Below are positions 13,413 to 42,353 of a stretch of DNA of 64,000 nucleotides, one piece after another (the first letter of the stretch is position 1; each line of letters opens with the position of its first letter). The notes under the pieces are model-generated. The model was not told where the DNA came from. It saw only the letters and a program-made list of their open reading frames with translations, and made no database searches. The position numbers and the translations under genes were made by a program. The stretch covers positions 1,426,001-1,490,000 of the forward strand of contig NC_009486.1 in NCBI RefSeq assembly GCF_000016785.1, in the 5' to 3' direction. The DNA is from Thermotoga petrophila RKU-1 (GTDB lineage: Bacteria > Thermotogota > Thermotogae > Thermotogales > Thermotogaceae).

Positions 13413-13610
13413 TTAAAAACTCTGATTTCCAGCAGTTGAACCTTTGAAAGTAACCTCACAAGTAGCTGCACTTTTGGGTGCAACCTGAACCTGTTCCGTA
13501 ATCTCACTTTTCCAGGAATGCGTTTCGTTATCTGTCTTCACTTTGTCAGCGAAAATGATTGTAGACAGGAGAACGAGTATCAAAAAGATTATCATCAAAA
13601 CCCTTCGCAT
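13413..13610 (-). CDS. Secreted small peptide precursor A
   Basis: 65 residues. N-terminal signal-like segment (MRRVLMIIFLILVLLSTIIF, then ADKVKTDN) with a likely cleavage after FA, a polar middle with one Cys (ATCEVTFKG), and the end STAGNQSF. The ATG at 13610 lies behind AGGTGATC; a GTG at 13619 is an alternative. It is divergent from the TPR gene at 13765. Related peptides lie in the same place in modules 2, 3 and 4; two of the three complete ones share TAGNQ near the end. Inferred to be a secreted signalling pro-peptide. Confidence 0.65.
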   Translation of the reverse strand: MRRVLMIIFLILVLLSTIIFADKVKTDNETHSWKSEITEQVQVAPKSAATCEVTFKGSTAGNQSF

Positions 13611-13638
13611 TCTGATCACCTGTCATCACTTTATCAAA

Positions 13639-13660
13639 CCTTATATGGTTTTCAAGTTTT
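13639..13660. promoter_or_regulatory. Shared box between peptide A and TPR regulator 1
   Basis: Second copy of the 22-base element (core TTATATGGTTTTCAAG). On the minus strand it carries TTGAAA as a -35 for peptide A, with a weak TAAAGT 16 bases further. See the entries at 13282 and 25505. Confidence 0.6.
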
Positions 13661-13715
13661 GGCTGTTCCAAAATCCTCTTTAAAAGCACATTTTCAGCAC
13701 CAGATTTCATGGGCT

Positions 13716-13745
13716 TTGAAACAATTTGGTTTTTTGAGGTATAAC
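13716..13745 (+). promoter_or_regulatory. Promoter of TPR regulator 1
   Basis: TTGAAA at 13716-13721 and TATAAC at 13740-13745, spacing 18 bases, about 20 bases before the ATG. The same elements precede the regulator of module 2. Confidence 0.6.
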
Positions 13746-13764
13746 TATAACAGAGGGAGTAAAG

Positions 13765-15327
13765 ATGAAAAGTATAGAAGGCCTGAAAGAGACATTCAAG
13801 TACGGTGCTTTTTCTCTTCCAGCAGTGAATTACATGCTACTCGAAGAAAACCTTCCAAAAGAGTGCAGAGAGGTTCTCTGTATACTGAAACTCGCTTGGA
13901 AAGGAAACTTCAAAGAAGCGATTCAGAAAACAGATAAAATTTTGAAAAGCTGCAAATCCGAAGCAGCGAAATATTTTCTTTTGGCGAACAAACTGGCATT
14001 TTTAAAATATACAGGCAAAGTAGATATGAATCTGTACAGGTACCTGAAAAGAAACCTTCCCAAAATGTCAAAATCGATAAGAGATACTGTGATCGTTACT
14101 TTAATAAATTTTGAAGCAAGCGGAGTAAAGCCACTGCGGAAGATGAGGGTGTGGAAGAACAACTACAGAAAATCCACACTTTCTTTTTTATATCTCTCCC
14201 TGGCAAGAAGGGAAGCAGATTCTGGAAGACTCTCTGAGGCGGTACACGATTACATACAGGCCTACAGACTATCCAGGGAGGTTCCTCACCCAACCTGTAT
14301 TGTTTCCTCCCTGAACGATCTTGCATGGGATATCAGGGAAAAACATCCAAAACTTGCCCATGCTCTTTCTCAAGGAGCCGTTTTCTGGCTAGGATACTAC
14401 AGAGAGGAACCAGGAAATCTCTTTGGAGCCCTGGATACTCTGTTTGTTGTGGAAAAAGACATGGATTCACCGTCTATCCACAGCACTGCACATATCATCG
14501 TTTCGCTTCCCGTACCAGAAGATTATCTGTCTCTACTCAAAAAAGCGAAGAAATTTGTGTTGGACTACACAGGATCAACTTATCCGAACACAAGTCAGTT
14601 GAGAAGATATGTTGAAAAGGTCGCTTGGAAAGGAAAAACTCTCAGCTCCAAAGGTATCTCAGATATATTGAAAGGGAAAACAAAAATGATTCGTGCAGAT
14701 ACGATAAGAAAACTGTTGACATCTGGTGTTGATACAGGGGCACCTTTTCCTGTCTGGAACGAGTGGATAAAGATGGAGATTGAAAGAAAATACAGGGAGT
14801 CGTCAGAAAAGCTTAAAGAGCTCCCCTTTCATCAGAGACAAATCCTTTTTCTTACCACCTACATGGCTCTTCTTGATAGAGAGTTCCTTTCAAGGAAAGA
14901 AAAGCTCAAAAAGGCATATACACTCCTTGAAGATATTGAGTCGTTCGCTGATTTCATGGCAAAAGATCACCGGACCATGGAATTTGTTGTTTCAATGGTG
15001 AAGGCTCATCCTTTCGTTGAAGGAAGAAAAGAAGCAGTGAAGAGAGCCCTTGCAAGGATGAAAAGAAAGAGACTGGAAAGATTTGTTCTGAGATACATCG
15101 AGATGAAAGAGTCAGACAGAAAGCTCCTTGATAGATTTCTGAGGAACTACGGAAGGTACGATGGTGTGAGGTTTGGGATCAGATTGAAAGGTCCAGAAGC
15201 GGTGAGAGGGTTTGCGAGGAAGTACTCTCTCAAGGTTCAACCCCTGTTTGCTGCCTTCTGGTGTGAAGAGGATGGAAGAGTGAGAAGAAGACTGGAAAGA
15301 ATTTTGAAATACATGTTTCTAAATTGA
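13765..15327 (+). CDS. TPR-like regulator 1 with central HTH-like segment
   Basis: 520 residues, intact. The first 270 residues are helical pairs like tetratricopeptide repeats (for example LYLSLARREADSGRLSEAVHDYIQAY and the following AKHPKLAHALSQGA type). A short segment near 290-320 (SSKGISDILKGKTKMIRADTIRKLL) looks like an XRE-type helix-turn-helix. The last 160 residues are a basic helical domain nearly identical to those in the other modules. RRNPP regulators (Rgg, PlcR, Rap) combine TPRs with an HTH and bind secreted peptides; here the HTH is central, not N-terminal, so the likeness is architectural only. ATG behind GGGAGTAAAG. Divergent from peptide A. Confidence 0.65.
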   Translation: MKSIEGLKETFKYGAFSLPAVNYMLLEENLPKECREVLCILKLAWKGNFKEAIQKTDKILKSCKSEAAKYFLLANKLAFLKYTGKVDMNLYRYLKRNLPKMSKSIRDTVIVTLINFEASGVKPLRKMRVWKNNYRKSTLSFLYLSLARREADSGRLSEAVHDYIQAYRLSREVPHPTCIVSSLNDLAWDIREKHPKLAHALSQGAVFWLGYYREEPGNLFGALDTLFVVEKDMDSPSIHSTAHIIVSLPVPEDYLSLLKKAKKFVLDYTGSTYPNTSQLRRYVEKVAWKGKTLSSKGISDILKGKTKMIRADTIRKLLTSGVDTGAPFPVWNEWIKMEIERKYRESSEKLKELPFHQRQILFLTTYMALLDREFLSRKEKLKKAYTLLEDIESFADFMAKDHRTMEFVVSMVKAHPFVEGRKEAVKRALARMKRKRLERFVLRYIEMKESDRKLLDRFLRNYGRYDGVRFGIRLKGPEAVRGFARKYSLKVQPLFAAFWCEEDGRVRRRLERILKYMFLN

Positions 15328-15436
15328 ACACGATGCCCTAACTCTTTATGGAATCTGTGAATCCTGTCTCCACTGACCGCTTACCATTCTTCTAAAGAAG
15401 AGTGGCTTGTACAGTTGAAGATCTGTCAATCAAAAA

Positions 15437-15871
15437 CTAATTTACCTCAACCTTTGTTAAGTCTATCATAGGAATGAGCACAGGATGAATCCCCATTTGA
15501 GCAGTTGTTGTGGCTACGAAAGATCGAACTATAATGAGTAGGTTCATTAAACCATTGTATTTACAAAGTTTGTCAAACAAATCTTCGCTGCTTTCTTCAA
15601 TATTGGCTTCGAATTTACCTTTTATTCTTACATACATATCGTGAACCTGTACATTTCCTTGCCTTCCTCTTATGTAAACACCTAAAACGATGCTCCTAGA
15701 AAAATAATCTTTTTGATGAACTATTTTTCCAAATTCTGGCTCGAGTTCGAGTTGGTAATCAATAAAATTGCCTTTTACTTCTTTTAACTGAAATTTTGCT
15801 TCTTCAATGAAGTAACCCAGCATTCTGAAAAAACTCCTTGAAGGGATAATACTATTTTTTTGCTTCATCAT
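15437..15871 (-). CDS. SecB-like chaperone of a toxin-antitoxin-chaperone set
   Basis: 144 residues. The C-terminal half (IKGKFEANIEES..., then CKYNGLMNLLIIVRSFV, then MGIHPVLIPMIDL) follows the pattern of SecB and SecB-like proteins, where an antiparallel sheet is followed by a long helix and a Pro-containing end. It overlaps the HTH antitoxin gene at an ATGA junction. In known TAC systems such a chaperone protects the HigA-type antitoxin; the order toxin-antitoxin-chaperone is the same here. Assignment is by pattern, not by a search. Confidence 0.6.
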   Translation of the reverse strand: MMKQKNSIIPSRSFFRMLGYFIEEAKFQLKEVKGNFIDYQLELEPEFGKIVHQKDYFSRSIVLGVYIRGRQGNVQVHDMYVRIKGKFEANIEESSEDLFDKLCKYNGLMNLLIIVRSFVATTTAQMGIHPVLIPMIDLTKVEVN

Positions 15872-16260
15872 GCAGCGACACTCCTTTGAGCTTCAAAAGA
15901 TGTGATTATTTCTTCAGACACTCCAAAGCCATATCTTGGTGATTTGTTTTCTTCTTCCGGCAGTAACCCAAGAGATATTTTGATTTTACCACCAAGTGCA
16001 GCGACTATCTTTGCCAGCACCCTAATAGATATGTTTTTCTCTCCTGTTTCAATTTTTGAAACCATAGACTGGGATACTCCAAGCTTTTTGGCCAGATCTT
16101 TCTGGGTCAGGTTGTGCATCTTCCTATAGGCTAGCAGCTGACCTCCTATCTGAGACATCACTTCGATAAAAACTTTTTCCTCTTCAGAATGATGAAATCC
16201 CATTTCTTCGAACAATTCAAAAACATCGGAATACTTTTTGAATTCCTTCACCTCCGTCAC
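15868..16260 (-). CDS. HigA-like antitoxin (XRE family)
   Basis: 130 residues with a clear Cro/C1 helix-turn-helix near 45-95 (LTQKDLAKKLGVSQSMVSKIETGEKNISI). The C-terminal tail beyond the HTH (KSPRYGFGVSEEIITSFEAQ) is the place where TAC antitoxins carry the chaperone-addiction segment. It lies between a frameshifted HigB-like toxin and a SecB-like gene, so it probably binds the toxin and autoregulates the operon. Confidence 0.75.
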   Translation of the reverse strand: MTEVKEFKKYSDVFELFEEMGFHHSEEEKVFIEVMSQIGGQLLAYRKMHNLTQKDLAKKLGVSQSMVSKIETGEKNISIRVLAKIVAALGGKIKISLGLLPEEENKSPRYGFGVSEEIITSFEAQRSVAA

Positions 16261-16728: not shown

Positions 16729-18444
16729 TCATCTCATCAGCTGGCTCTTCACAATTTCTCTGTAGAGAGGAGATTTCTTCATGAGTTCTTCGTGGGTCCC
16801 TTCAGCTTCCACCCTTCCATCGTTCAGTACAATGATTCTGCTGGCCTTTTTTATGGTAGAAAGTCTATGAGAGACGATGATCACCGTCTCGATCTCATTC
16901 AGAATTTTTTCAAGGATCTTTTCCTCTGTTTCGCTGTCAACACCAGATGTAACCTCGTCCAGAATCAGAACCTGCGGCTTTCTTATCAGGGCCCTTGCAA
17001 GGACGATTCTCTGTCTCTGACCATCTGAGAGTCTTGTCCCTCTTTCTCCAACAACCGTGTCTATTCCGTTTTCCAGTTCCTTAACAAAGTCACACTCACA
17101 CATTTTGAGAACATTTTCGATCTCATCTTCTGGGAAGTCTTCAAAAAGGGTGATATTGTTTTTGATAGTGGTGTCGAACAAAATATCGTTCGATCGAACA
17201 AGAACGATGTTTCTTCTGAGTGATTGAAGAGAGTACTGTTCGATGGGAACACCGTTTATGAGAATTTCACCCTCTGTGGGAGACAGTAGCCTGTTGAAAA
17301 GAGAAACGAGCGTGCTCTTTCCTGCACCAGATCTTGCCACAATTGCGATCTTATCCCCGGAGTTTATCTCGAAATTCAAACCAGTGAGAACAGGTGTTTC
17401 ATCGTATTTAAAATGCACGTTTTTCAACTGCAGTTTTTCGAACCTTTCAAGATCTATTCCGCTTGCTCTTTCAAAGGGCAGGGAAAACACTCTTGTAAAA
17501 TTTTCCCAGTTTGGAACTGTAGAGAAAAACGTCGTCAGACCTGTGAGTGCCATTCTGACGATGTCGTATATCCAGTTCATATAGGATTCAAAAGCCAGAA
17601 GCGTTCCAACACTTATCTCACCCTTCCAGAGAAGGTAAACACCGAAGGCAAGGACAATGGTACTCCCGACCCATCTGTTCATCTCGATGTTCCTGTTCGA
17701 AAGTTCGTTTACCGTGCTGTGGATGATGCTTGCCCTGCTCCACTCTCTGGCACTTGAATCGAGGAAATCTCTGAGAAACAAAAGGCCAGAAAACTGTTTG
17801 AGAACCGGTGTTCCTTCCACCACTTCTCTGGATCTTTTCAAAAATCTCTGGTAGGCTTCCTGATCTCTCTGAGATGTCCTGATGACCATCTTTTTCAGGA
17901 TTGAAGTCGATACAAAAAACAGAACGATGCTCGCCAGAACCACAAGGGCAAGTTTCACATTCAGAATGAACAGAAGCGAAAGAACAACAAGAAAAAATCC
18001 CAGATTGAAGAAAAACTGAAGCCTCGCAAGATAAACCCCCGAGGCCACCTTCGGAATATCCCTCATGAAGATCGAAAGATAATCACCGGTGTTCCTCGAG
18101 TTCAGAAAAGATAGTGGAAGTGTCAGGATTTTCGCATAGGCACCCTTTGATTCCTTAGCCCGTGATGCGTTCAGCAGGTGTTTCGCAACTGAGAAGTTCA
18201 GTCTGTACATGATGAAGGACTGAGACACAAGAACGACAAAATAAAGTATGGAAAACAGAGCGACTTCTTCTACAGAACCCCTGTAGAACGCACTGTCGAT
18301 GGTCTTTTTTATGAGAAGTGGAGTGAGAACGTTGGTGGTTAAAAACAGGCTCTCCAGTAACAAGAAGATCGGATAGTACCTTTTGTATTTCCTCTCGAAT
18401 TTTTTGATATCGTCTCTGACGTTACTTGCTGAGAAAAATTTCAT
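16729..18444 (-). CDS. ABC exporter (fused membrane and ATPase domains), module 2
   Basis: 571 residues. N-terminal six-helix exporter domain (about 20-300), then an ATPase domain with Walker A (ARSGAGKST), Q-loop, signature LSDGQRQRIVLARAL and Walker B LILDEVTSGVD. There is no C39 peptidase domain at the N-terminus, so leader cleavage must be done elsewhere. Large parts are nearly identical at base level to the exporter at 29444. It ends the module 2 minus-strand operon, 6 bases after an ABC ATPase gene. Probable export of a modified peptide. Confidence 0.85.
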   Translation of the reverse strand: MKFFSASNVRDDIKKFERKYKRYYPIFLLLESLFLTTNVLTPLLIKKTIDSAFYRGSVEEVALFSILYFVVLVSQSFIMYRLNFSVAKHLLNASRAKESKGAYAKILTLPLSFLNSRNTGDYLSIFMRDIPKVASGVYLARLQFFFNLGFFLVVLSLLFILNVKLALVVLASIVLFFVSTSILKKMVIRTSQRDQEAYQRFLKRSREVVEGTPVLKQFSGLLFLRDFLDSSAREWSRASIIHSTVNELSNRNIEMNRWVGSTIVLAFGVYLLWKGEISVGTLLAFESYMNWIYDIVRMALTGLTTFFSTVPNWENFTRVFSLPFERASGIDLERFEKLQLKNVHFKYDETPVLTGLNFEINSGDKIAIVARSGAGKSTLVSLFNRLLSPTEGEILINGVPIEQYSLQSLRRNIVLVRSNDILFDTTIKNNITLFEDFPEDEIENVLKMCECDFVKELENGIDTVVGERGTRLSDGQRQRIVLARALIRKPQVLILDEVTSGVDSETEEKILEKILNEIETVIIVSHRLSTIKKASRIIVLNDGRVEAEGTHEELMKKSPLYREIVKSQLMR

Positions 18445-18450
18445 AGCCTC

Positions 18451-19167
18451 TCAATCCCCCGGAAATGCCTGTATCTCTAAAATACCTCTCAACACTGCCG
18501 CCAAATCTTCCTTTTTTGGAGAAAATTCGAGAACTTTTTCGCCCTTTTTCAAAACGATCACCCTGTCTGCGATCTTTAGATCCTCCAGGTCATGACTTGC
18601 AAAGATGACGATTCTACCACTCTCTTTGAGTCTTTTCATGATCTCGTGTATCTTCAATCTCGTTCTGAGATCAACTCCACTGCACGGCTCATCGAAGATG
18701 TATATGCTCGCCTTTTTCATCAGGGCTCTTGCCACATCAACTCTTTTTTTGTACCCGGTGGAAAGTTCCATGTACCTCTTTTTCCTGCACTCCAGAAGAC
18801 CCAGTTCCTTCATCACTCTTTCTGTTTCTCTCTTCAGCGTTTTTCCAAGAAGGTCGTTCAACATACCAAAAAACTTCAGATTCTCTTCCACACTCAACCT
18901 GTAGTAGAAGCTCCTCTCATACCCGGTTGATATGCTGACCTTTTCTACTGCAAAGGAAGGCTTTTCCACGATGTTCACACTGTCTATGAGAACCTTCCCT
19001 CTGTCAGGAATGAGAAAGGAGGCTATAACCTTCAAAAGTGTCGTCTTTCCAGAACCGTTCTCGCCGAAGACCGCCGTGATACTTCCTTCTTCCGCCTCAA
19101 AACTCACTCCCCTTAAAGCCTGTGTTTTCGGAGGGTATTTCTTCCAGACATCGATCACCTCTAGCAC
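18451..19167 (-). CDS. ABC transporter ATPase, module 2
   Basis: 238 residues with Walker A GENGSGKTT, signature LSTGYKKRVDVARAL and Walker B IFDEPCSGVD. It resembles ATPases that partner with ABC-2 type permeases (antibiotic or bacteriocin export and immunity). The GTG start at 19167 lies behind GAGGTGAAAAC. The partner permease gene is 9 bases upstream, and the fused exporter gene follows. Confidence 0.88.
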   Translation of the reverse strand: MLEVIDVWKKYPPKTQALRGVSFEAEEGSITAVFGENGSGKTTLLKVIASFLIPDRGKVLIDSVNIVEKPSFAVEKVSISTGYERSFYYRLSVEENLKFFGMLNDLLGKTLKRETERVMKELGLLECRKKRYMELSTGYKKRVDVARALMKKASIYIFDEPCSGVDLRTRLKIHEIMKRLKESGRIVIFASHDLEDLKIADRVIVLKKGEKVLEFSPKKEDLAAVLRGILEIQAFPGD

Positions 19168-19176
19168 GTTTTCACC

Positions 19177-19989
19177 TCAGTACCAGCTCAGACTTCCTCT
19201 CAATCGGGCCTGATTGAAGGATCTTTTGAACGCAACGATTCCCGCTGATATCAATACTGTTCCTGTTGCTGCAAGAAGAACCAGTCCTTCCGACACACTG
19301 GAAAGGTGTTCGCCTCTCATGAGGACTCTTCGCAAAAGGTCTATGCCATAAGTGCTGGGAATGAGGTACGAAACAGGTCTTATCCAGTCTGGAAGAATTT
19401 CCACGGGAAAGTAGATACCAGAAAACAAGCCACTGAGTGTGGTGTAAAGCCACCCCACAGGATCTCCTCTTTTTGTGACGAGAACGATGGACGCAGAGAG
19501 AAGGCCAATACCCATGAGAGGAAGCATTACAGTGAAAAGAACAACCAGGGCTTCAAGAAAGTTCGGTGTGATATGAACCGAGAAGAGATAGACCAGTCCC
19601 AGAAAAATCAGTGTGATGTTCAGCGTGGTGAAAAAGAAGGAAGACACGAAACTGAAGAGAAAAAGCTGCCAGAGAGGTGTCTTTGAAAGAAGGATGTACT
19701 CGAGAGTTCCCATGCTCTGTTCTCTCTGTATGACACCTTTGAAGGTCATGAGGGCAAGATTCGTGTAAGACATGAAAACAGAACCAGTGATGAAGTACGC
19801 CAGGATGTCACCACCGTATCGCTCTATCAGGGGAAAGTAGTTCCCCTGTGCGATGAATTTTCCAATGAAACCGAACTGGACAATTCCCACAAAACCGGAT
19901 AAGAGCCCGAGAACAAGCTGTGTTCTGTAAGAAAGCCAGATGAGGATATCTTTTCTAATGAAGTACAACGTTTTGATCAGAAGTTTCAA
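19177..19989 (-). CDS. ABC-2 type permease, module 2
   Basis: About 270 residues with six hydrophobic segments and the ABC-2 signature region (SGLFSGIYFPVEILPDWIRPVSYLIP) near the C-terminus. I chose the TTG at 19989, which starts LKLLIKTLYFIRKD behind GGTGGTGAAGGT and follows directly after the Cys-rich peptide gene; an ATG at 20040 would overlap that gene. Partner of the ATPase downstream. Confidence 0.8.
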   Translation of the reverse strand: MKLLIKTLYFIRKDILIWLSYRTQLVLGLLSGFVGIVQFGFIGKFIAQGNYFPLIERYGGDILAYFITGSVFMSYTNLALMTFKGVIQREQSMGTLEYILLSKTPLWQLFLFSFVSSFFFTTLNITLIFLGLVYLFSVHITPNFLEALVVLFTVMLPLMGIGLLSASIVLVTKRGDPVGWLYTTLSGLFSGIYFPVEILPDWIRPVSYLIPSTYGIDLLRRVLMRGEHLSSVSEGLVLLAATGTVLISAGIVAFKRSFNQARLRGSLSWY

Positions 19990-19996
19990 ATGACCT

Positions 19997-20182
19997 TCAC
20001 CACCAGAGGAAAATTCGCTTCCACCATGGAACATGATCACATTCGGTGTTGCAAAGGCCTACACAGTGACTGTTCGTACATTCATCACAGTTTCCCACTC
20101 TGTCTCCACATCGGTCTTTCAGACTATCGCAGAAACTCAGATAGACCTTTTCATCCACCACTGGATCGTTGAGAAATTCCAT
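19997..20182 (-). CDS. 61-residue seven-Cys peptide, candidate RiPP precursor
   Basis: ATG at 20182 behind AAAGGAGGAG with 8 bases of spacing. The N-terminal third (MEFLNDPVVDEKVYLSF) looks like a leader; the rest has seven Cys (18, 25, 32, 35, 40, 44, 48) in CGDRVGNCDECTNSHC and VGLCNTECDH, and ends in PWWKRIFLWW. It lies directly after two tandem radical SAM/SPASM genes, overlapping the second by 32 bases, and before an ABC permease. Context and composition fit a thioether-type (sactipeptide or ranthipeptide) precursor; the crosslinks cannot be deduced. Confidence 0.7.
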   Translation of the reverse strand: MEFLNDPVVDEKVYLSFCDSLKDRCGDRVGNCDECTNSHCVGLCNTECDHVPWWKRIFLWW

Positions 20183-21515
20183 GAACGGCACTCCTCCTTT
20201 TGTAATCTGCAACTATCTTTATAAACTCATTTAAATTGTACCTCAACGGGATGCATGTGTGAGGCTTTTTTACCTTTGAGGATTTCAGGGTTCTATAAAC
20301 CACCCTGTTGAAAGCACATCCACCCATACAGAAAGGAAGCACAAGGCATCTTCTGCATTCTTCGTCTTCAAGTGGGTCATACGTCAACCACTTCAAATAC
20401 GATCCAGTGAATTCGACTCCGGTTTCTTTCAAAAAACCTGAACAGTTCTCCATACCAAGTTCTCCCCAACATTTGTACACTCTTCCATCCACATCGACCA
20501 CGAAACTGTTCTTACACATGGCATCACATCTTGCAAAACGTGGTTTTTTGAAATATTCAAAAGGATACTCAGGAATTTTCTCCCTGATGTACCACCACAG
20601 CTTCGTTTCTATCTCCGCAAACTCTTCTGTGTTCAGTGCTGTGTCCTGAAAGCCTGTGGGATTTCCCTCAACGATCTCTATGGGCTGGAAATTGAACTCC
20701 ACTCTCAACTTTTTCTCTGCTATCCTATCGATGAGTTTCTTCACATCTTCAATGTTCTCTCTAGACACGTTCACTCTGATCTGAACGAATAAGCCTTTGT
20801 TGACAGCACGAAAGATATTTTCGAAAATGGTGCTGAAAGTTGGAGCACCGTTTCTGGCTTTCCTGTACCGATCGTGGTACACCTCTGTACCGTCCAGTGT
20901 TATGTCCAGTGCCTTTATTCCTGCTTTCTGAAGATCATCTACCATCTTCTCCGTCAGAAGGTAGCCATTTGTCACGATGAAGGAATCGTACTTCACACCA
21001 TATTTTTCGCAGAGTCTTTTCAGTTTGCTGCTCAGATTCACCACTGTTTCTTCCAGAAGCAAAGGTTCTCCCCCGTAGAAAGTAACGCTCAGCAGGTTTG
21101 GTTTTTGGTATTCTAATTTTCTTTCCACATCCAGGAGGAAGTTGCTTTGCACTTTTTCAGAAATGTAGGATCCTGAGGAAATATGAATTACCTTCTGATA
21201 ACAGTAAACGCAATCGAAGTTGCAGGAGTGGGTTAAAACAATTGTGTATCTCAAAAATCTATCACTGTAGCGATACGTGTTGAAGCGAAATTTCAGAAAC
21301 TCCAGTTCATCGAAGTTGTCATCAAGCAAAAACATTCCCCGTTTCAACTTTTCAACTTCCGCTTTCGAAAGTTCTGCCGAGGAAGGATCTTCCAGGGTCT
21401 TCAGTACCTTGTTGGTGTTTTTCCTATCTATCCACAGAAGGGCTTGAGAAAGCGTGTTGAACAAAAGTGTGCCATCGCTTTCATTTATTACCAAATTAAA
21501 TCTCGAAGGCTTCAT
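20151..21515 (-). CDS. Radical SAM/SPASM peptide maturase 2, module 2
   Basis: About 454 residues. N-terminal region like a peptide-recognition domain (MKPSRFNLVI), radical SAM core with CNFDCVYC (Cys 98, 102, 105) and FYGGEPLL, and a C-terminal SPASM domain with CEKYG-distant Cys residues: CDAMCKNSFVVD, then CRRCLVLPFCMGGC. It shares the MKPSRFN start and overall design with its neighbour at 21496 and overlaps it by 20 bases, so the two probably act together. In known families such enzymes install thioether or carbon-carbon bonds in precursor peptides. Confidence 0.85.
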   Translation of the reverse strand: MKPSRFNLVINESDGTLLFNTLSQALLWIDRKNTNKVLKTLEDPSSAELSKAEVEKLKRGMFLLDDNFDELEFLKFRFNTYRYSDRFLRYTIVLTHSCNFDCVYCYQKVIHISSGSYISEKVQSNFLLDVERKLEYQKPNLLSVTFYGGEPLLLEETVVNLSSKLKRLCEKYGVKYDSFIVTNGYLLTEKMVDDLQKAGIKALDITLDGTEVYHDRYRKARNGAPTFSTIFENIFRAVNKGLFVQIRVNVSRENIEDVKKLIDRIAEKKLRVEFNFQPIEIVEGNPTGFQDTALNTEEFAEIETKLWWYIREKIPEYPFEYFKKPRFARCDAMCKNSFVVDVDGRVYKCWGELGMENCSGFLKETGVEFTGSYLKWLTYDPLEDEECRRCLVLPFCMGGCAFNRVVYRTLKSSKVKKPHTCIPLRYNLNEFIKIVADYKRRSAVHGISQRSSGG

Positions 21516-31162: not shown

Positions 31163-31167
31163 AGTTT

Positions 31168-33006: not shown

Positions 33007-33117
33007 CCCCCTTCCTTATTAAGACAGATCTTTTGTGATCTTTCAAACTTTTCCGGTTCTGAAAAGCCATTTTTAAGGCATTCTACGATAGAGGATTTTT
33101 ATTGAGATTTCATATTT

Positions 33118-33192: not shown

Positions 33193-34800
33193 TTGAAAAG
33201 TCATCAACTTTTGAAAGCACCATTTCAGCATGGATTTCTCTTCTCACGACCACTTGTTATGTACTGCTTCAAAACATGCCATGATTCAGCCTGGAAACAT
33301 TACATAAGATTTCTGAAATACCGTCATGAAAAGCTTTACGAGGAAGCTCTTTCAGAGATAGATAACGCAATAAAGGTTTGCAACTCGATCGCCTTTCGCT
33401 ACTTTCTTCTTTCAGAAAAACTCACCGTGCTCGGTTATATGGGAAAACACGAGGAAGGAATAAAACTTTACTCTCATTTACGCGGTAGAATGAGAAACGT
33501 TTCACCGAATCTCAGGAGCATATTTATTGGAAACCTTCTGAACTATTGCTCCATGTATCTACACAACGCTTTTGAATGTTTAGGGAGAATAAAGCCAGAG
33601 GCTCATCATCTGGAGAAATCCTCTTATGCTTTTATACTGATAGGAAAAGCAAGATATATGGCAAGAACAGGAAACGTCAAAGAAGCGATGGAGTTCTACG
33701 AAAAAGCACTGAAAATACTGCAAGAAATTCCTCATCCTTCTGGAATAATCGCCTGTCTTAACGATATGGCATGGTATAAAAAGGAGAAAGATCCAGAAAA
33801 AGCCAAAGATATGGCAGAAGAAGCACTCTACTGGAATGGATACTTTTTTGATACTCCGCGGTTCTATGCACTGGACACACTGTTTGAGATTCAAAGGACA
33901 ACTTCTGACCCCGCAATCGTTGAAACTGCCAGGCTGATTGTGATCGCTTCTGAAGGGTTAAAAGACAACGCAAACGATCTCTTGAAAAATGCCCAGAAAC
34001 TGTGTTTGAGATTGAACAACTCTCTCTACAAAAACACAAAATCTCTCCAGAGATTTCTGAAGAAAAACACCACATCCATCAAACACCTCTCAGAAATGAC
34101 AGGAGTTGCAAGAAACAGACTGATCGACATATTAAACGGAAAAACACAAAAGATCAGGGGAGAAACGCTAAGAAAAATAGCAAAGGCTCTTGGAAAGTCC
34201 AACATTTTGTCTCTTCCTGAACCCCTGTTAAATGAACTGGTGAAACTGAAGATAGAAGAGGATTTCTCGGCTTCATTGAGAGAAATAAAGACAAAAATTT
34301 TAGAGGAAAGACAAATCCTTTTTCTTACCACCTACATGGCTCTTCTTGATAGAGAGTTCCTTTCAAGGAAAGAAAAGCTCAAAAAGGCATATACACTCCT
34401 TGAAGATATTGAGTCGTTCGCTGATTTCATGGCAAAAGATCACCGGACCATGGAATTTGTTGTTTCAATGGTGAAGGCTCATCCTTTCATTGAAGGAAGA
34501 AAAGAAGCGGTGAAGAAGGCCCTTGAAAGGATGAAAAGAAGGAAACTGGAAAGATTCACTTTGAAATACATCGAGATGAAAGAATCTGACAGAAGGCTTT
34601 TGGATAAATTTCTAAGAAACTACGGAAGGTACGATGGTGTGAGGTTTGGCATCAGGTTAAAAGGTCCAGAAGTAGTGAGAGAATTTGCAAAAAAGTACTC
34701 TCTCAAGGTTCAGCCCCTGTTTGTTGCTTTCTGGTGCGAAGAGGACGGCAGAGCAAGAAGAAGACTGGAAAGAGTCTTGAAGCATATGGTCCTGAATTGA
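33193..34800 (+). CDS. TPR-like regulator 3 with central HTH
   Basis: 535 residues, intact. Helical TPR-like repeats in the first 280 residues (for example YFLLSEKLTVLGYMGKHEEG and IGKARYMARTGNVKEAMEFY), a clear XRE-like helix-turn-helix at about 293-335 (IKHLSEMTGVARNRLIDIL, then GETLRKIAKALG), and a C-terminal domain (about 373-535) almost identical to that of regulators 1 and 2. The TTG start lies behind GGAGGGAAAGGA. It is divergent from precursor C. Peptide-sensing regulation is inferred from architecture and context. Confidence 0.72.
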   Translation: MKSHQLLKAPFQHGFLFSRPLVMYCFKTCHDSAWKHYIRFLKYRHEKLYEEALSEIDNAIKVCNSIAFRYFLLSEKLTVLGYMGKHEEGIKLYSHLRGRMRNVSPNLRSIFIGNLLNYCSMYLHNAFECLGRIKPEAHHLEKSSYAFILIGKARYMARTGNVKEAMEFYEKALKILQEIPHPSGIIACLNDMAWYKKEKDPEKAKDMAEEALYWNGYFFDTPRFYALDTLFEIQRTTSDPAIVETARLIVIASEGLKDNANDLLKNAQKLCLRLNNSLYKNTKSLQRFLKKNTTSIKHLSEMTGVARNRLIDILNGKTQKIRGETLRKIAKALGKSNILSLPEPLLNELVKLKIEEDFSASLREIKTKILEERQILFLTTYMALLDREFLSRKEKLKKAYTLLEDIESFADFMAKDHRTMEFVVSMVKAHPFIEGRKEAVKKALERMKRRKLERFTLKYIEMKESDRRLLDKFLRNYGRYDGVRFGIRLKGPEVVREFAKKYSLKVQPLFVAFWCEEDGRARRRLERVLKHMVLN

Positions 34801-34896
34801 ACCCGGAGTTCCAGCCTTAGAATCTCTTTCTCCTGCTATAATTTAATCGAAATTGCCATATCATTTGTCATGATGGAAAAATGAGGGGTGAAAAAC

Positions 34897-35115
34897 GTGC
34901 GCAAAATTTTCACAGCTATCATTGAATACGATCCTGAAACAAAGCAATATGTTGGAATGGTTCCGGACGTTCCGGGTGTGCATACTGTAGGTAGTTCCTT
35001 AGAAGAAGTGAGAAGGAATTTAAAAGAGGTGCTTGAACTCGTATTGGAGGAAGCAGGAGATGAAATAAATCACCAGGAATTCGTGGCTCTTGAGATGATA
35101 GAGGTGGAAACTTGA
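34897..35115 (+). CDS. hicB: HicB-family antitoxin, copy 2
   Basis: 72 residues, almost identical to the protein at 27249, but with a GTG start behind GAGGGGTGAAAAAC. A TATAATTTAATC upstream (about 34838) is a likely -10. Overlaps hicA by 4 bases. Confidence 0.8.
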
Positions 35116-35342
35116 GTTATCTTCCAATAGTTGATCCAAAAACTATGGAAAAGGTTTTACTGAAACTTGGATTTCAACGTGTTCGCCAAAAAGGAAGTCA
35201 TGTGTTCTACAGGCACAGCAATGGCAGATATACGACCATCCCATTTCATGCAAGAGCCTTGCCCAAATCACTTATAAGAAAAATCATCCGTGAAGCGGGT
35301 ATATCAGTGGAGGAATTCAAGAAAGTACTTGAGAATCTGTGA
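35112..35342 (+). CDS. hicA: HicA-family toxin, copy 2
   Basis: 76 residues with the catalytic region [26 protein letters not shown] and the complete helical end ([15 protein letters not shown]). Family members cleave mRNA; the His in GSHV is the expected catalytic residue. TTG start, coupled to hicB. This is the intact version of the frameshifted copy at 27464. Confidence 0.82.
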
Positions 35343-36251: not shown

Positions 36252-37022
36252 CTAATACATATCGATGTTTCCGTACTTTCTTGCTGCAAATTCAATCAAC
36301 CGCAGTGTGAAATAGGCCAAAACGAGGTATGCAAGACCTACTGCCGCTTCCCAGGCACTTGAAATCCAGGCCTTCATTTTAAATCCTTGCAGAGCGTATA
36401 TTATGCTTTCGACCGAACGCGAAAGCGGCAAAAGCTGTGAAAGCCATCTGAAAAACACGGGCAGTCTTTCTATAGGAAAACTTGCACCGCTCAAAATGAA
36501 AACCAACATCTCTGCAACACCAAGAAGCATGTTGATATCTCTCGTCAGCAGTCCAAGAGCTGCCACCGTCATTCCGAAACTGCTCAGAGCCAGTACACCT
36601 ATCGTCATATGGGCAAAAAGGCTCGCAGTAATGGAGGGATCAAGTTTTAAAAAGCAAAATGAAACAGCCAGTCCCAGAATCACCGTGGCCAGTGCATCGA
36701 TTATGTGAAAAGGCATCTTTTTTAGCATTACTTTGAATTTCGATGAAGGCGAAACAACGAAGAAAATCAACGATCCCTGATCTCGCTCGGAGAAAAATAT
36801 TATGCCGAGCCCTTTAAAAACGCTTATTGAAGACAGAGCCATGATATTTGCTATTATGAAAGCTCTCGCATCGTGCAGCGTTTTATATCCATATGCAAGA
36901 AGTGTTGAGTAAAAGAGCAGCCGAAAAATCGGATTGATGATCTTTTCAGCGGCATAGGCTTTCCAGTTCAGCCACAGGGAAACCCCTTTGTACGAAATCC
37001 AAAAATGTCTGAGCAGCCTCAC
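36252..37022 (-). CDS. ABC-2 type permease, module 4
   Basis: 256 residues, six hydrophobic segments, with SGASFPIERLPVFFRWLSQLLP in the place of the ABC-2 signature. GTG start 4 bases after the stop of the preceding permease remnant. Possibly partners with the ATPase at 39190. Confidence 0.75.
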   Translation of the reverse strand: MRLLRHFWISYKGVSLWLNWKAYAAEKIINPIFRLLFYSTLLAYGYKTLHDARAFIIANIMALSSISVFKGLGIIFFSERDQGSLIFFVVSPSSKFKVMLKKMPFHIIDALATVILGLAVSFCFLKLDPSITASLFAHMTIGVLALSSFGMTVAALGLLTRDINMLLGVAEMLVFILSGASFPIERLPVFFRWLSQLLPLSRSVESIIYALQGFKMKAWISSAWEAAVGLAYLVLAYFTLRLIEFAARKYGNIDMY

Positions 37023-37025
37023 TTC

Positions 37026-37690
37026 TCAAACCAGCTCCCCTTCCGCTCTGCTTTTTCTTTCTATCTTTTTGAAAAGAACATGTCCTAAAAGAAAGTAAAA
37101 AAGCGTGAGTAAAAGTGCGTTGAAAATCAAATCCTTTCCAGCACTGCCAACTTCAAAGGAATCTCTCATCAGCGTAACTGACCAGCTTATGGGAAGGAAA
37201 CTGGAAATCACTCGAATCCATTTTGGAAGAATGTCTATCGGAAAGAGCATTCCCGAGATGAAATACACCGGATACTGGATCGTTGACATCCATGAAAAGG
37301 CGTTCTTTGAGAGTGTCAAAAGCGTTGCAAAAACGAAAGAGGTGGAAATGAAGGAAAGGACCAGTATCAGAAACGAACAGGCAAACATCACGGGATTCGA
37401 AATGGCAAACTCCAACTTCAAGACAAAATAAGAATAAGCCACAACCACGGCGGCTTCCATCTAATTCCCCCGCTTCAATCAATATCAGCGGATTCTGATA
37501 ATGCAGAAATTTTTGCAAAGTAGCAGCCTCTGGCACTCTTTTCCAGAAAGATTGCGACCACCAACACTGCCACCAAACCACCCGCTTGCACGAGACCTAT
37601 TTTCATTTGATAAATTCCCACGGTGATTGCTACTTATCCACTGTTGAACAATATAGCAATGGGACGTGAAAGAATCATCAAAAACCCTGC
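37026..37690 (-). pseudogene. ABC-2 type permease, broken, module 4
   Basis: The C-terminal 144 residues (37460 to 37026) are good ABC-2 sequence (YFISGMLFPIDILPKWIRVI). Upstream, pieces of the N-terminal part appear in other frames (MILSRPIAILFNSG, a stop, then VAITVGIYQMKIGLVQAGGL), so at least one stop and one frame change disrupt it. Confidence 0.65.
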
Positions 37691-38484
37691 AACCCATTTT
37701 TCCTTCCTTTGGTTTGAAGTACCTTAAAAGAAATGGTGCCAAAAGCTAAGTACAGTAAAGATAAAACAATCAAGATGATGAATTCTTTTTTCAAGTCAAG
37801 CAATGTGTTTGTTTTCATGAGAAAATAGCGTGTGAGGTCCAACCCCCACGTAAATGGAAAAGCATATGCAAGATATTCCAGCACTTTTGGAAGAACATTC
37901 ACAGGAAAAAACATACCACCAATCAGAGGAGCGGCATTACCAAGCAAACTCACCAGTTCGTCCCCTTCTTTGAATCTCAACGTGATGCCAAAAAACAGAA
38001 AGACAAGACCGAAAGAAGCGATTATGGAAAGAATAACAACACCCGCTGCAAGGGCAAACTCAACCAGGTTGAAGGTCATCAGATTCAGCAGCACTGCCAG
38101 GACGATTATCGGAACAGACTCCACGGTAACTTTCACAAGACCAAAAACCGACCACGAGAGGATGTACCCTATGGAACTCACGGGCATGATGAACAGTTCT
38201 TCCAGCTGTCCTATTCTCATGTAGTACCTCAAAGCAAAGACAGATCCCCAGAGTACCTCAACGTAGTTCCAGTAAGCTGCCCCTAGCAGGAGGTATCCGA
38301 TGATGTTCTTCGTGTTCGTCGCACCGTAGAAAAACCGTACAAGGCCTGATTCTGTGCCAAAGTAATAGAGCAGGACAACGGGCATTATCGTCAGAAGGGG
38401 TGTGAGGAAAGCTCCATACCAGTCTATTCTGTATCTTTTCGCACTCAGGAAACTGGCTTTTGCAAGATACAGACTTCTCACCAT
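37678..38484 (-). CDS. ABC-2 type permease, module 4
   Basis: About 268 residues, six hydrophobic segments, with GMFFPVNVLPKVLEYLAYAFP near the end. ATG at 38484 is 9 bases after AAGGAGA; an ATG at 38493 is an alternative. Overlaps the upstream permease gene by 7 bases. Confidence 0.82.
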   Translation of the reverse strand: MVRSLYLAKASFLSAKRYRIDWYGAFLTPLLTIMPVVLLYYFGTESGLVRFFYGATNTKNIIGYLLLGAAYWNYVEVLWGSVFALRYYMRIGQLEELFIMPVSSIGYILSWSVFGLVKVTVESVPIIVLAVLLNLMTFNLVEFALAAGVVILSIIASFGLVFLFFGITLRFKEGDELVSLLGNAAPLIGGMFFPVNVLPKVLEYLAYAFPFTWGLDLTRYFLMKTNTLLDLKKEFIILIVLSLLYLAFGTISFKVLQTKGRKNGLQGF

Positions 38485-39236
38485 GATTCCCATTCTCCTT
38501 TTTTTCGAATCTCGTTTTCTGCCTTTTTAAGCAACCATACTCCGAGGATCAGATAGGCAAAACTCAAACCTGTCAGTATCAGGAGTTGGGGAACAAAGCC
38601 ACTCATGTTTCCGTTTTTTATTATGCTTCTTCCTATGGAGATGAGGTAGGTGAGCGGTATCATGTACGAGATGAGTCGAACGTAAGAAGGGAAATTCTCA
38701 ACAGGATTGACCATCCCTGAGAGGACGCCAAAAAAGAATTGGGCAGTGGAATTTATGCTTCTGATTCTCTTCTTCCACAACGACAACGCTGCGAAAAATA
38801 TCGAAAAGAATGTTATGTAAACACCGCTCACCGCCAGCAAAAGAAGAAAGTAAAGATGGATCTCAAGCTTTATACCGGAAAGGTAGAAGAAAAGCAATGT
38901 GAAGAATGTTATGTACAGGTTCATTAGGAATGTGTCAGCGGCTTTTGAGAACAAAAAAGCCAAAAGACTGATTGGAGCAAGTACCACGGAGATGAGGGCA
39001 CCTTCTTCTCTTTCTTCTGTGAATCCGTCTCCCACCCCAAAGAAGTACTGGTTCAGCCAGTACCAGAGCAGGGCTCCTATCAACACGTTCTCTGCAAGCG
39101 AGTTCACATCAGCGATTCTGGAAGAAAACACATAAGGTCCTATGATGAAAAATGGTGTCAGAGCCATGTTCACCCACACGAACCTGTATTTAAGCCTTAT
39201 CTTCATCTCCTTCAGAACCAGATGGAGTATCTTCCT
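38478..39236 (-). CDS. ABC-2 type permease, module 4
   Basis: About 252 residues, six hydrophobic segments, ABC-2-like end (SGMVNPVENFPSYVRLISYMIP). The ATG at 39236 begins MRKILHLVLKEMKI. It overlaps the ATPase gene by 47 bases, so it is a translationally coupled partner. Confidence 0.82.
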   Translation of the reverse strand, partial: RKILHLVLKEMKIRLKYRFVWVNMALTPFFIIGPYVFSSRIADVNSLAENVLIGALLWYWLNQYFFGVGDGFTEEREEGALISVVLAPISLLAFLFSKAADTFLMNLYITFFTLLFFYLSGIKLEIHLYFLLLLAVSGVYITFFSIFFAALSLWKKRIRSINSTAQFFFGVLSGMVNPVENFPSYVRLISYMIPLTYLISIGRSIIKNGNMSGFVPQLLILTGLSFAYLILGVWLLKKAENEIRKKGEWESW

Positions 39237-39966
39237 CATCCATATTTCGCCCCCTGATGAGGTTTTCGAACACCTCATATACTTCGCTTCTTTCGCTGCG
39301 GATATCCTTGTATCTCACTTCCATCTGTACACGACCGTTTCTAAGAAGAACAACGCAGGCATTCTCGGGAAGAACGTGAAGTACATGACTTATCATTACG
39401 ATAGTCAATCCCCTCCTGTTCCGTTCATCCAAAAAACCGACCATTTCACGCACCGACGGTGGATCCAGACCGTTGAGTATCTCGTCGATGAACAGTACCT
39501 CTGGATCGTGAATTAGCGCTTTACAAATCATCAACTTTTTCCTCATGCCCGTTGAAAACTCTTCGACGGGTTTGTCTTTGTATTCGAACAGACCGAATCT
39601 TTTGAGAAGCTCTTCCATTCGTTCTCTTCTGACTTTTTTCGGTACGCCGTATACACCCCCAAAGATATCGAGGTTTTCCCAGGCAGTGAGTTTCCAGTAC
39701 AGACTTCTCTCGTTTGCAAGAACCACCCCTATTCTCGCAGATAGTTTCTTCCAGTGCTTTTTCACATCAACGCCGAGAACCTTCACTTCCCCATCGTCAG
39801 GAAGCAAGAGACCTATCATGATTTTCAGCAGTGTGCTTTTTCCCGAACCGTTCTCGCCGACGATTACCTTGAAGTCTCCCTCTTCTGCGTAAAAATCAAC
39901 TTTATCGAGAACTCGAAGTTCTCCGAAGGATTTCCTGACACCGGACACTTCTACGACTTTTCTCAT
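39190..39966 (-). CDS. ABC transporter ATPase, module 4
   Basis: 258 residues with Walker A GENGSGKST, signature FSTGMRKKLMICKAL and Walker B LFIDEILNGLDPP. The start overlaps the radical SAM gene (ATGA). With several ABC-2 permease genes downstream it forms an export or immunity system for the module 4 peptide (inference). Confidence 0.87.
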   Translation of the reverse strand: MRKVVEVSGVRKSFGELRVLDKVDFYAEEGDFKVIVGENGSGKSTLLKIMIGLLLPDDGEVKVLGVDVKKHWKKLSARIGVVLANERSLYWKLTAWENLDIFGGVYGVPKKVRRERMEELLKRFGLFEYKDKPVEEFSTGMRKKLMICKALIHDPEVLFIDEILNGLDPPSVREMVGFLDERNRRGLTIVMISHVLHVLPENACVVLLRNGRVQMEVRYKDIRSERSEVYEVFENLIRGRNMDEEDTPSGSEGDEDKA

Positions 39967-41291
39967 ACCAACTTCACCCTTTCACGGAACTTTGAAAATA
40001 ATCTCAAAAGTTCTGGATAAGAATTTTGATGAAAAACTTTCCAGCAATCTTTCTTTGTTTTCAAAATATAGGCGTTAAACCTACAGCCACCATTACATAT
40101 AGGTAAATAGATACAGTCCTTACACTCGTTGTCAGTATTATCGTTTTCCATGAATTGAGAGTAACGCCTCAAAAAGTCTATTGGAGAATTAAGAAATTCA
40201 CTGTAGGAACATATCCTAAACTCCTCTCTTCCCACTCCCGAAATACAATTGTACAAATCTCCGTTAGGAGCAACAACTAGATCTGTTTCCTTATGGTAGG
40301 TACATGGCCAGATGTTGAGAAAATCCAATAGGAAAATGTCCCGTTCTAGAGCAACTTTTATAGTATTTACATAAATATTTGCATACTCTGCAATATCAGG
40401 TATATTCTCGATCGTATAGGCACAAGAACTATTTGGATGACTTAGTAATCCAATGTTGAACAAAAATCTCTCTTTTATCGTATTTTTACCGAAGATGTCT
40501 ATGAGCTCATCTATCATCATACCGTATTTTTCCTCTGAATTCATTCTGTCTAAAACAGTATGGATAACTATTGTTAAATTTGTTTTATTAAGTAATTTGT
40601 TTATGTTATCTATTATTACTTCCCAAGTCCCGTCGTAGTTTTGCGAGATCCTTCTTTTATCATGAATGTTTTTTGGCCCATCTATGGTTATTTGAATAAA
40701 CCTGAATTTGGAATTACTTAGTACTTCAAACATATGATTAGAAAAACTCACACCATTTGTTATTATATTGTACTGCTTGATCGGCACTTGCTCTTTTTCA
40801 GCAATTCTAATAATTTCACTCAACTTTTCAGGATAGAGAGAAGGCTCTCCACCAAAAAATGTCACAGCAATGGTCTTCGTGTCAAACAGATCCATCAAGG
40901 CTAGCCATAAATTTACTCTATCTTGAGGAGAAAGTGAACCATTTCTTTCTTTATTATGTGGTTTGATACCTTGCTGCATACAATAAATGCAGTTTAAATT
41001 ACAGTTCAATGTTATGACATCTGTTATTGATAAAACAGAGCGGTCATACTTGATTTTATTCGAAATATACTTGAACAATGCATACTCATTAATATGATTC
41101 TCCAATACAATACCTCTATCTACAAAAGTTGACAAGAGAAACTCCTCATTAGCACCGTTGAGTGCAGCTTGTAATCTTCTCAGCTCATCCACATTGGTTT
41201 CCGCATAACTTCTTAACAACACGTTATAAAGAAGGATCCGGTTCTTTTCTTGTACTTTAATGAGAAAATCCGAGAATTTGTACCCTGACAT
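39963..41291 (-). CDS. Radical SAM/SPASM peptide maturase, module 4
   Basis: 442 residues. CNLNCIYC at Cys 97, 101, 104, FFGGEPSLYPE motif, and a SPASM end with CISGVGREEFRIC and CKDCIYLPICNGGC. ATG at 41291 behind GGGGTGG. AT-rich. It lies 99 bases after the 29-aa two-Cys peptide gene, with a palindrome between. This peptide is its likely substrate. Confidence 0.86.
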   Translation of the reverse strand: MSGYKFSDFLIKVQEKNRILLYNVLLRSYAETNVDELRRLQAALNGANEEFLLSTFVDRGIVLENHINEYALFKYISNKIKYDRSVLSITDVITLNCNLNCIYCMQQGIKPHNKERNGSLSPQDRVNLWLALMDLFDTKTIAVTFFGGEPSLYPEKLSEIIRIAEKEQVPIKQYNIITNGVSFSNHMFEVLSNSKFRFIQITIDGPKNIHDKRRISQNYDGTWEVIIDNINKLLNKTNLTIVIHTVLDRMNSEEKYGMMIDELIDIFGKNTIKERFLFNIGLLSHPNSSCAYTIENIPDIAEYANIYVNTIKVALERDIFLLDFLNIWPCTYHKETDLVVAPNGDLYNCISGVGREEFRICSYSEFLNSPIDFLRRYSQFMENDNTDNECKDCIYLPICNGGCRFNAYILKTKKDCWKVFHQNSYPELLRLFSKFRERVKLV

Positions 41292-41351: not shown

Positions 41352-41369
41352 AGAAGGCGGCCGCCTTCT
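41352..41369 (-). promoter_or_regulatory. Perfect 18-bp palindrome between peptide and maturase, module 4
   Basis: AGAAGGCGGCCGCCTTCT, centred about 20 bases after the stop of the 29-aa peptide gene. Position equivalent to the hairpin at 32605-32637 in module 3. Confidence 0.65.
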
Positions 41370-41390
41370 TTAAAAATTTCTAACCTCAGT

Positions 41391-41480
41391 CTAAGGAGTT
41401 ACTACTGCACATCTTTGACTTCTGTTAGTGCATCCACCTAAAGGAATAGAATGGTTCGCGATTCGCTTAAGTACATTCAT
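41391..41480 (-). CDS. 29-residue two-Cys peptide, RiPP precursor candidate
   Basis: ATG at 41480 behind AAAGGGGGGACAAAGG. The peptide starts MNVLKRIANHSIPLGG and goes on CTNRSQRCAVVTP, with Cys at 17 and 24. Its start overlaps the end of precursor D (ATGA), so the two are translationally coupled. It precedes a radical SAM/SPASM gene and an ABC export set. Too short for routine annotation. Confidence 0.65.
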   Translation of the reverse strand: MNVLKRIANHSIPLGGCTNRSQRCAVVTP

Positions 41481-41716
41481 CCTTTGTCCCCCCTTTCATT
41501 CGATATTAGAAGCCTCGCGAGGCTTTTATTAAACCGTAAAATTTGATTTCCAGCCGTTAAATCTTCCGAGTGTGACTTCTCTAGCAGGAGGGTGTGAACA
41601 ACAGTTTTTTTCCTCACTGTCGTTTGATAATCATCAGAAGGACTGGGAAACACAAGCGTGTATAGGAGAGAGAGCAGAATAACTATTGTGAGAATGATCC
41701 TTCTCACGATTTTCAT
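41477..41716 (-). CDS. Secreted small peptide precursor D
   Basis: 79 residues from the ATG at 41716 behind AAGGGGG. The first 53 residues are nearly those of precursor C (MKIVRRIILTIVILLSLLYT, then VFPSPSDDYQTTV). At the place where C ends in TVGN it reads TAGNQILRF and runs on through a palindrome to overlap the 29-aa peptide gene. It is divergent from the deleted regulator 4. The extension may be non-functional read-through or a coupling device. Confidence 0.6.
   Translation of the reverse strand: MKIVRRIILTIVILLSLLYTLVFPSPSDDYQTTVRKKTVVHTLLLEKSHSEDLTAGNQILRFNKSLARLLISNERGDKG
41510..41525 (-). promoter_or_regulatory. 16-bp palindrome before the 29-aa peptide gene
   Basis: AAGCCTCGCGAGGCTT, inside the 3' part of precursor D, about 30 bases before the next start. 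Equivalent in place to 32784-32801. Confidence 0.55.
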
Positions 41717-41827
41717 CCCCCTTCCTCATTAGAACAGATCTTTTGTGACCTTTCAAATCTTCCTGGTTTTGAAAAGCCCTTTTTAAAGCGTTCTGCGATA
41801 AAGGATTTTCATTGAGATTTCATGTTT

Positions 41828-41870
41828 TGTGCAATTTCACTCCTAACGTTACACAGCAGTGTGATAAAAT
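41828..41870 (+). promoter_or_regulatory. Promoter region of regulator 4
   Basis: Same layout as 33118-33160: imperfect inverted repeat (TGTGCAA / TTACACA) and an extended -10 TGATAAAAT. Confidence 0.45.
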
Positions 41871-41902
41871 AGCGTAAAAATAATAGTTTTGGAGGGAAAG
41901 GA

Positions 41903-42353
41903 TTGAAAAGTCATCAACTTTTGAAAGCACCATTTCAGCATGGATTTCTTTTCTCACGACCACTTGTTACATACTGCTTCAAAACATGCCATGATGCATC
42001 CTGGAAACATTACATAAGATTTCTGAAATACCGTCATGAAAAGCTTTATGAGGAGGCTCTCTCAGAAATAGATAGCGCAATAGATGAAAAGAAAGAAACT
42101 AGAAAGATTCACTTTGAAATACATCGAGATGAAAGAGCCTGACAGAAAATTCCTTGATAGATTTCTGAGGAACTGCGGAAGGTACGATGGAGTGAGGTTT
42201 GGGATCAGGCTAAGGAAGCCGGATGTGGTGAGAGAGTTTGCAAAGAGGCACTCTCTCAAGGTTCAGCCCCTGTTTGTTGCCTTCTGGTGTGAAGAGGACG
42301 GCAGGGCAAGAAGAAGACTGGTGAGGATATTACACTGGATGACTCAAGAGTGA
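41903..42353 (+). pseudogene. TPR-like regulator 4 with internal deletion
   Basis: The first 60 residues (TTG start, MKSHQLLKAPFQHGFLFSRP) match regulator 3. At about 42083 the sequence jumps to the C-terminal domain in another frame (KKLERFTLKYIEMKEPDRKF ... FVAFWCEEDGRARRRL), deleting about 1.15 kb with the HTH. The regulator is inactive, although its partner peptide and maturase genes look intact. Confidence 0.8.

Follow-up and report, generated by a model that had tools for sequence, protein, structure and literature searches.

A 64,000-nucleotide stretch of the Thermotoga petrophila RKU-1 genome (the window; positions 1426001–1490000 of a single contig of 1,823,511 bp) carries four divergent gene pairs, in each of which a small minus-strand open reading frame (ORF) with a signal-peptide-like start, here called the propeptide, lies opposite a plus-strand gene for a regulator with tetratricopeptide repeats (TPRs) and a helix-turn-helix (HTH). 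A first-pass annotation had proposed that these pairs, each beside radical S-adenosylmethionine (SAM), peptide and export genes, are four modules of a peptide-sensing system that switches on ribosomally synthesized and post-translationally modified peptides (RiPPs). When the ORFs were re-read in the sequence, all four pairs were found where they had been placed. The locus presumably corresponds to the TM1298–TM1336 region of T. maritima, with the stationary-phase Cys-peptide TM1316, and the relative genome G006 is taken to be T. maritima MSB8.

Pair 1, 13413–13619, minus strand: propeptide 1, predicted signal peptide followed by ADKVKTDNETHSWKS..., 68 aa from GTG or 65 from an inner ATG
Pair 1, 13765–15327, plus strand: regulator 1, intact, 520 aa, with TPR, HTH and C-terminal domain, from a family of 33 or more homologs
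Pair 2, 25368–25475, minus strand: propeptide 2, truncated, 35 aa, retains ADKVKTDNETHS
Pair 2, 25631–27188, plus strand: regulator 2, frameshifted, in ORFs 25625–26743 and 26646–27236 (feature 25625–27236)
Pair 3, 32833–33006, minus strand: propeptide 3, 57 aa, predicted signal peptide, C-terminal end DLTVGN
Pair 3, 33193–34800, plus strand: regulator 3, intact, 535 aa, HTH at aa 286–336
Pair 4, 41477–41716, minus strand: propeptide 4, 79 aa, predicted signal peptide
Pair 4, 41903–42353, plus strand: regulator 4, internal-deletion remnant

With regulators 1 and 3 alone intact and the other two broken, a count of four modules is on the generous side. Regulator 2 is frameshifted by one surplus A in an A-run near 26690 (26685–26700); since its counterparts in T. 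neapolitana and T. maritima have an open reading frame, the break is a sequencing error, slippage or a recent loss. In the regulator 4 remnant, residues ~1–61 are fused out of frame to ~436, and its counterparts are decayed in three more Thermotoga genomes. Truncation of propeptide 2 occurs where its ORF joins, and continues into, an AlbA-like radical-SAM fragment.

A regulator family of the Thermotogota

The regulators (467–576 aa across the family) are built from a TPR superhelix, a mid-protein Cro/C1 HTH and a private helical C-terminal domain. The predicted TPR and HTH folds, a test set beforehand, were borne out by Pfam, a confident structure model and fold search. Regulator 3 matches TPR_12 (4.7e-9) and HTH_3 (9.7e-7), both above cut-off, whereas regulator 1 gives a weak TPR match only; TPR_12 is matched by 10 of 33 family members. 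In the 33-member alignment R108, H181, N190, W194, D228 and T229 are invariant in the TPR part, and the C-terminal part also contains invariant residues. AlphaFold2 modelled whole regulator 3 with a predicted local distance difference test score (pLDDT) of 89.5 and a predicted template modelling score of 0.89, and the HTH plus C-terminal domain with a pLDDT of 94.5. The whole model retrieved TPR peptide-binding proteins from the PDB (E about 1e-3), with generic TPR proteins as best matches, and the HTH retrieved Cro/C1 domains (SinR, CapH, DdrO) with a probability of 0.99 and poor E-values; PrgX showed up weakly with the HTH plus C-terminal model, and the C-terminal domain had no clear PDB match. 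Against viral models the fold search returned generic TPR/Sel1 proteins only, and no signal peptide was seen in the regulator.

Conservation is unevenly spread along these proteins. Identity between regulators 1 and 3 is 34% in the TPR part and 29% in the HTH but jumps to 80% in the C-terminal domain, the change falling abruptly near residue 365, and the same boundary divides 17–40% from 90–100% identity among the regulators of G006, all copies of which lie inside the present locus. This mosaicism looks like gene conversion that kept a C-terminal module common beneath sensing and DNA-reading modules that have diverged. For the C-terminal domain a role independent of specificity is probable, our guess being dimerisation.

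The system had been assigned to Thermotoga, which is too narrow, as the pairing extends through the whole phylum. Members of the family are present in 59 of 103 Thermotogota genomes, in 32 of 38 genera, and reach 18 matches in one genome of family f9. When 84,980 species were scanned with a pattern built on the C-terminal domain, which could miss TPR-HTH relatives that end differently, every match fell in Thermotogota or in unplaced bins of the same type. No relatives were found in viral contigs or on plasmids.

The propeptides, their promoter site and the RiPP genes

Conservation of the small ORF beside homologous regulators, also a test set beforehand, was assessed with one rule (34–120 aa, a hydrophobic N-terminal core with K/R, start 130–400 bp upstream on the opposite strand). 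Such an ORF lies divergent from 34 of 48 regulators as against 1 of 431 other genes at the same loci (Fisher p 1e-39, for loci that are not phylogenetically independent, although the matches cover most sampled families), and the rule found it again at 29 of 39 loci in a second set, two of them already present in the first; the pairing is kept across the phylum. By hydropathy the propeptides have a K/R n-region, a hydrophobic core and an A-D-like cleavage point; A-D or G-G-D at the expected position is followed by an acidic stretch (examples: ADETDANTNTENTNPVITQQVDG, AGDNDDEYATDSTNPQIQIEFSE and GGDDGGEDGTSGLKPTEIVSVVEKVE). A T-[DHNS]-[SG]-like core occurs in 31 of 40 propeptides (10.4 in shuffles) and lies midway along the mature part instead of clearly at the C-terminus. 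Propeptide 1 is identical in the genomes taken as T. maritima and T. neapolitana. No convincing match to the propeptides was found in Pfam or NCBIfam.

Upstream of the propeptide start lies a conserved promoter site, AAAAC-TTGA[AC]A[AG][CT]CATAT[AG]G. Its operator-like core, CTTGA(A/C)A(A/G)(C/T)CATAT, takes in the −35 element and much of the spacer, and is followed by a TATAAT-like −10 at a 16-bp spacing. An alignment of 28 sites shows no exception to TTGA and a single exception each to the C at +8, the A at +9 and the T at +12 (27 of 28); the sites were picked by the pattern TTGA-N3/4-YCA, so these letters are partly selected, whereas the flanks and the −10 are not. The 15-mer TATRTGGYTTTCAAG has exactly three copies in the 1.82-Mb genome, every one in the present locus, and a 14-mer searched in 16 genomes gave 38 matches, many directly upstream of regulators, against 7 for the reversed control. 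An Rfam scan of the window returned two tRNAs only, which leaves the conservation between the genes without an explanation by any known RNA family.

13284–13303, minus strand: extra operator-like copy before a decayed propeptide gene (remnant read by eye)
13627–13660, minus strand: propeptide 1 promoter, operator-like site ACTTGAAAACCATAT across the −35 and spacer
25493–25526, minus strand: propeptide 2 promoter with operator-like site
33012–33051, minus strand: propeptide 3 promoter, TTGAAAGATCA..., diverged operator-like site

The decayed gene (13150–13303) retains the pieces 'LLRRILILMA' and 'DGKTDAGNEMQTF' in two frames, and the sequence marks it as a dead extra module. Use of the same 15-mer operator by modules 3 and 4 was ruled out: the 15-mer is absent there, and the two modules have a diverged operator-like site in common, which would fit the diverged HTH and a regulator 3 that serves module 4 in trans. 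In genome G096, exact operator-like sites at 719284, 721852 and 1128577 lie ~1–4 kb from radical-SAM genes with no listed regulator adjoining; such solitary sites may possibly be used in trans.

At most loci the propeptide gene is followed by Cys-rich precursors, radical-SAM maturases and exporters. A radical-SAM gene lies on the peptide strand within 6 kb of at least 21 of 33 regulators in five complete genomes (1.7 expected), a count in which module 1's match is not RiPP-like. The neighbouring gene set claimed for every pair holds for modules 3 and 4, each of which brings together a radical-SAM/SPASM maturase, a Cys-containing precursor and an ATP-binding cassette (ABC) exporter as expected of a radical-SAM RiPP cluster of the sactipeptide/ranthipeptide type, but not for module 1, where the next gene encodes a Radical_SAM_N2 protein. 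Precursors and maturases vary widely between loci while regulator, propeptide and operator-like site are constant; on this comparison of sequences, the control cassette is the constant part and the product the variable one.

16729–20040, minus strand: ABC exporter genes, module 2
20151–22899, minus strand: two radical-SAM/SPASM maturases, module 2, Clo7bot-like by a best NCBIfam match that is below cut-off
27730–31171, minus strand: two ABC exporters (ABC_membrane and ABC_tran), module 3
31168–32559, minus strand: radical-SAM/SPASM maturase, module 3
32661–32756, minus strand: Cys-rich RiPP precursor MQKMPKPVVPNDYLNPGKGCGGAGLVCGWCG, 31 aa, TM1316-like
36252–39966, minus strand: ABC ATPase and ABC-2 type permeases, module 4
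39963–41291, minus strand: radical-SAM/SPASM maturase, module 4
41391–41480, minus strand: Cys-containing RiPP precursor MNVLKRIANHSIPLGGCTNRSQRCAVVTP, module 4

Module 2 also has a Cys-rich ORF, MEFLNDPVVDEKVYLSFCDSLKDRCGDRVGNCDECTNSHC..., at 19997–20182 behind the radical-SAM gene at 20151, which resembles MEFLN precursors of G006, G004 and G053. Its stretch 22937–25300 is rearranged, with a transposase-like zinc-finger remnant (22937–23026), an ABC pair and the AlbA-like radical-SAM fragment; G006 has Cys-rich precursors in this place. At locus L181 of genome G091 (outward strand, 520–2850), one propeptide gene is followed by six paralogous Cys-rich precursors (MKWIERND...). Right after regulators 2 and 3, as in close relatives, lie HicB/HicA-like toxin-antitoxin genes (27240–27646, with a shortened HicA, and 34888–35342). 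Between modules 1 and 2 a HipB/Xre-type HTH protein (15868–16260) overlaps a family-less 144-aa partner (15437–15871), possibly another toxin-antitoxin-like pair.

A candidate peptide-pheromone circuit

These elements make it quite probable that each complete module is a peptide-pheromone circuit controlling a RiPP operon. The propeptide, likely a Sec substrate, would be exported and then trimmed, its acidic T-[DHNS]-[SG]-x-x-P region serving as the signal; the mature peptide would re-enter through an Opp-type importer, for which 11 SBP_bac_5 proteins offer a candidate route, and bind the TPR groove. At the promoter the HTH would sit on the TTGA-N3-YCA site; since this overlaps with the −35 and spacer, its action there would most likely be repression. 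Peptide-bound regulator would then release the promoter or change state, switching on the operon together with more propeptide in a positive loop acting at high density or in stationary phase. A peptide ligand that turns the operon on is what this arrangement suggests; from the predicted genes and sites we infer that export is by Sec, that import is through SBP_bac_5, that the control is repressive, and what the mature peptide is. A secreted, matured and re-imported peptide resetting the regulator on its own RiPP promoter would explain every element seen in the sequence. Frock 2013 is said to have described the same T. maritima locus (TM1298–TM1336), with the 31-aa Cys peptide TM1316, radical SAM, ABC exporters and HicAB, and reportedly saw TM1315–TM1319 rise in stationary phase, a segment that would include the propeptide as first gene; that work is not known to describe the TPR-HTH/propeptide pair, the operator or the phylum-wide family.

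Several observations weigh against a circuit of this kind. About a quarter of the loci have no recognisable propeptide (some have an insertion, gap or contig end), and signal peptides were called from hydropathy. Directly behind the propeptide of module 1 comes gene 11240–13024 rather than a RiPP operon, and for seven regulators of genome G069 the matches listed include no radical-SAM gene at 6 kb or less. Receptor-ligand co-evolution is not claimed because the co-variation test was negative (partial rho 0.03, p 0.24; 48 pairs, crude measure), propeptides co-varying with the TPR part no more than with the C-terminal domain.

That same negative test would suit a small ORF that encodes a RiPP immunity or accessory peptide, with the TPR-HTH protein sensing the mature RiPP or another ligand, as would its place at the head of the RiPP operons of modules 3 and 4 and the presence of small immunity genes in many bacteriocin operons. 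This alternative is improbable, however: one propeptide family precedes unrelated precursors and maturases, immunity genes normally come after the product, and in module 1 propeptide and regulator are kept without an adjacent RiPP operon. The hydrophobic N-terminus of the ORF, its several copies plus decayed remnants and the nearby HicBA genes would also suit an addiction-like, toxin-antitoxin pair in which a membrane-active toxin-like peptide is repressed by the TPR-HTH protein. We consider this very improbable, since almost every propeptide combines a cleavage-like point (A-D or G-G-D) with a soluble, acidic and conserved tail, linkage with radical-SAM genes is stable, and the module 4 peptide ORF is still open beside a dead regulator in three genomes.

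The pheromone circuit has close parallels in the RRNPP systems, with which the first-pass annotation had compared it. Rap-Phr, PlcR-PapR and NprR-NprX, whose propeptides are exported by Sec, likewise join a TPR receptor to an adjacent 40–80 aa propeptide with a signal peptide (PMC10075063; PMC12700828), whereas the Thermotogota regulators are restricted to that phylum, exceed 500 aa in the window, follow the order TPR, HTH, C-terminal domain and have a propeptide whose core is placed centrally in its mature portion. In streptococci, Rgg circuits with short hydrophobic peptides (SHPs) control radical-SAM RiPPs (streptide, tryglysin; PMC13361665), a precedent for the wiring: here too a divergent propeptide and TPR-HTH regulator lie beside an operon of precursor, radical SAM and exporter, which the propeptide is expected to drive. 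Rgg differs in its N-terminal HTH, five TPRs and PptAB-exported SHPs from the Thermotogota system with its central HTH, extra C-terminal domain and probably Sec-type propeptide, and the Thermotogota regulators belong to another phylum and match no Rgg model.

Whether such regulators are themselves RRNPPA proteins is a separate question. Receptors of that family are described from Bacillota and have their HTH, if any, at the N-terminus (PMC12700828), and the RRNPP search tool is restricted to Gram-positive bacteria and receptors of 250–500 aa (PMC10075063); searches with such length and phylum limits would therefore miss the present family. Among the five parts of the RRNPP signature, adjacency, a small propeptide (10–100 aa) and TPRs are found and Sec secretion is likely, but the length (520 and 535 aa in the window) lies outside 250–500 aa. 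The HTH follows the TPRs, at aa 286–336 of 535. The central HTH and C-terminal domain had been said to differ from known RRNPP proteins, and this was upheld: at the thresholds used, none of the 33 members and neither of the two window proteins matched an RRNPP family model (RNPP_C, Rgg, AimR). That the regulators are true but divergent RRNPPA members, with a moved HTH and a gained C-terminal domain, would account for the shared parts (TPR superhelix, Cro/C1 HTH, neighbouring propeptide of probable Sec type, RiPP target) and the weak PrgX match; it is nevertheless doubtful, given the lack of model matches, which for the two window proteins extends to NCBIfam and PHROGs, the generic TPR proteins as best fold matches and the HTH position. 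Their architecture suggests a family that functions like RRNPP yet is not a member, and it is about an even call that they form a phylum-wide class of cytoplasmic pheromone receptors independent of RRNPPA, an interchangeable cassette for unrelated RiPP operons with up to 18 parallel channels per cell in one family. The proposed peptide-sensing reading is supported: neighbouring RiPP genes, conserved promoter site and lack of RRNPP model matches all point to an RRNPP-like system with a new receptor family.

Among the papers searched, none connects RRNPP with Thermotoga. The exopolysaccharide peptide of T. maritima is presumably TM0504, elsewhere in that genome. Peptide signalling has been reported in this species since 2005, with that density-dependent peptide (Johnson 2005, via PMC4187201 and PMC6022435), yet a survey of 127 thermophile proteomes met with no peptide system that was complete (PMC6022435). 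A Thermotogota-specific family of putative peptide-sensing regulators on RiPP operons is real, conserved and, so far as our checks reached, undescribed. Candidate receptor, signal and operator stand together in one place, conserved in the phylum and linked with dozens of RiPP clusters yet to be explored, which suggests an undescribed cell-to-cell signalling system spread through the Thermotogota. If this is true, no complete peptide quorum-sensing system would have been defined in hyperthermophiles before it; the signal exchanged by Thermotoga cells and the timing of their RiPP production are now directly testable, and operator and propeptide together provide a handle for finding and inducing the RiPPs of heat-loving bacteria.

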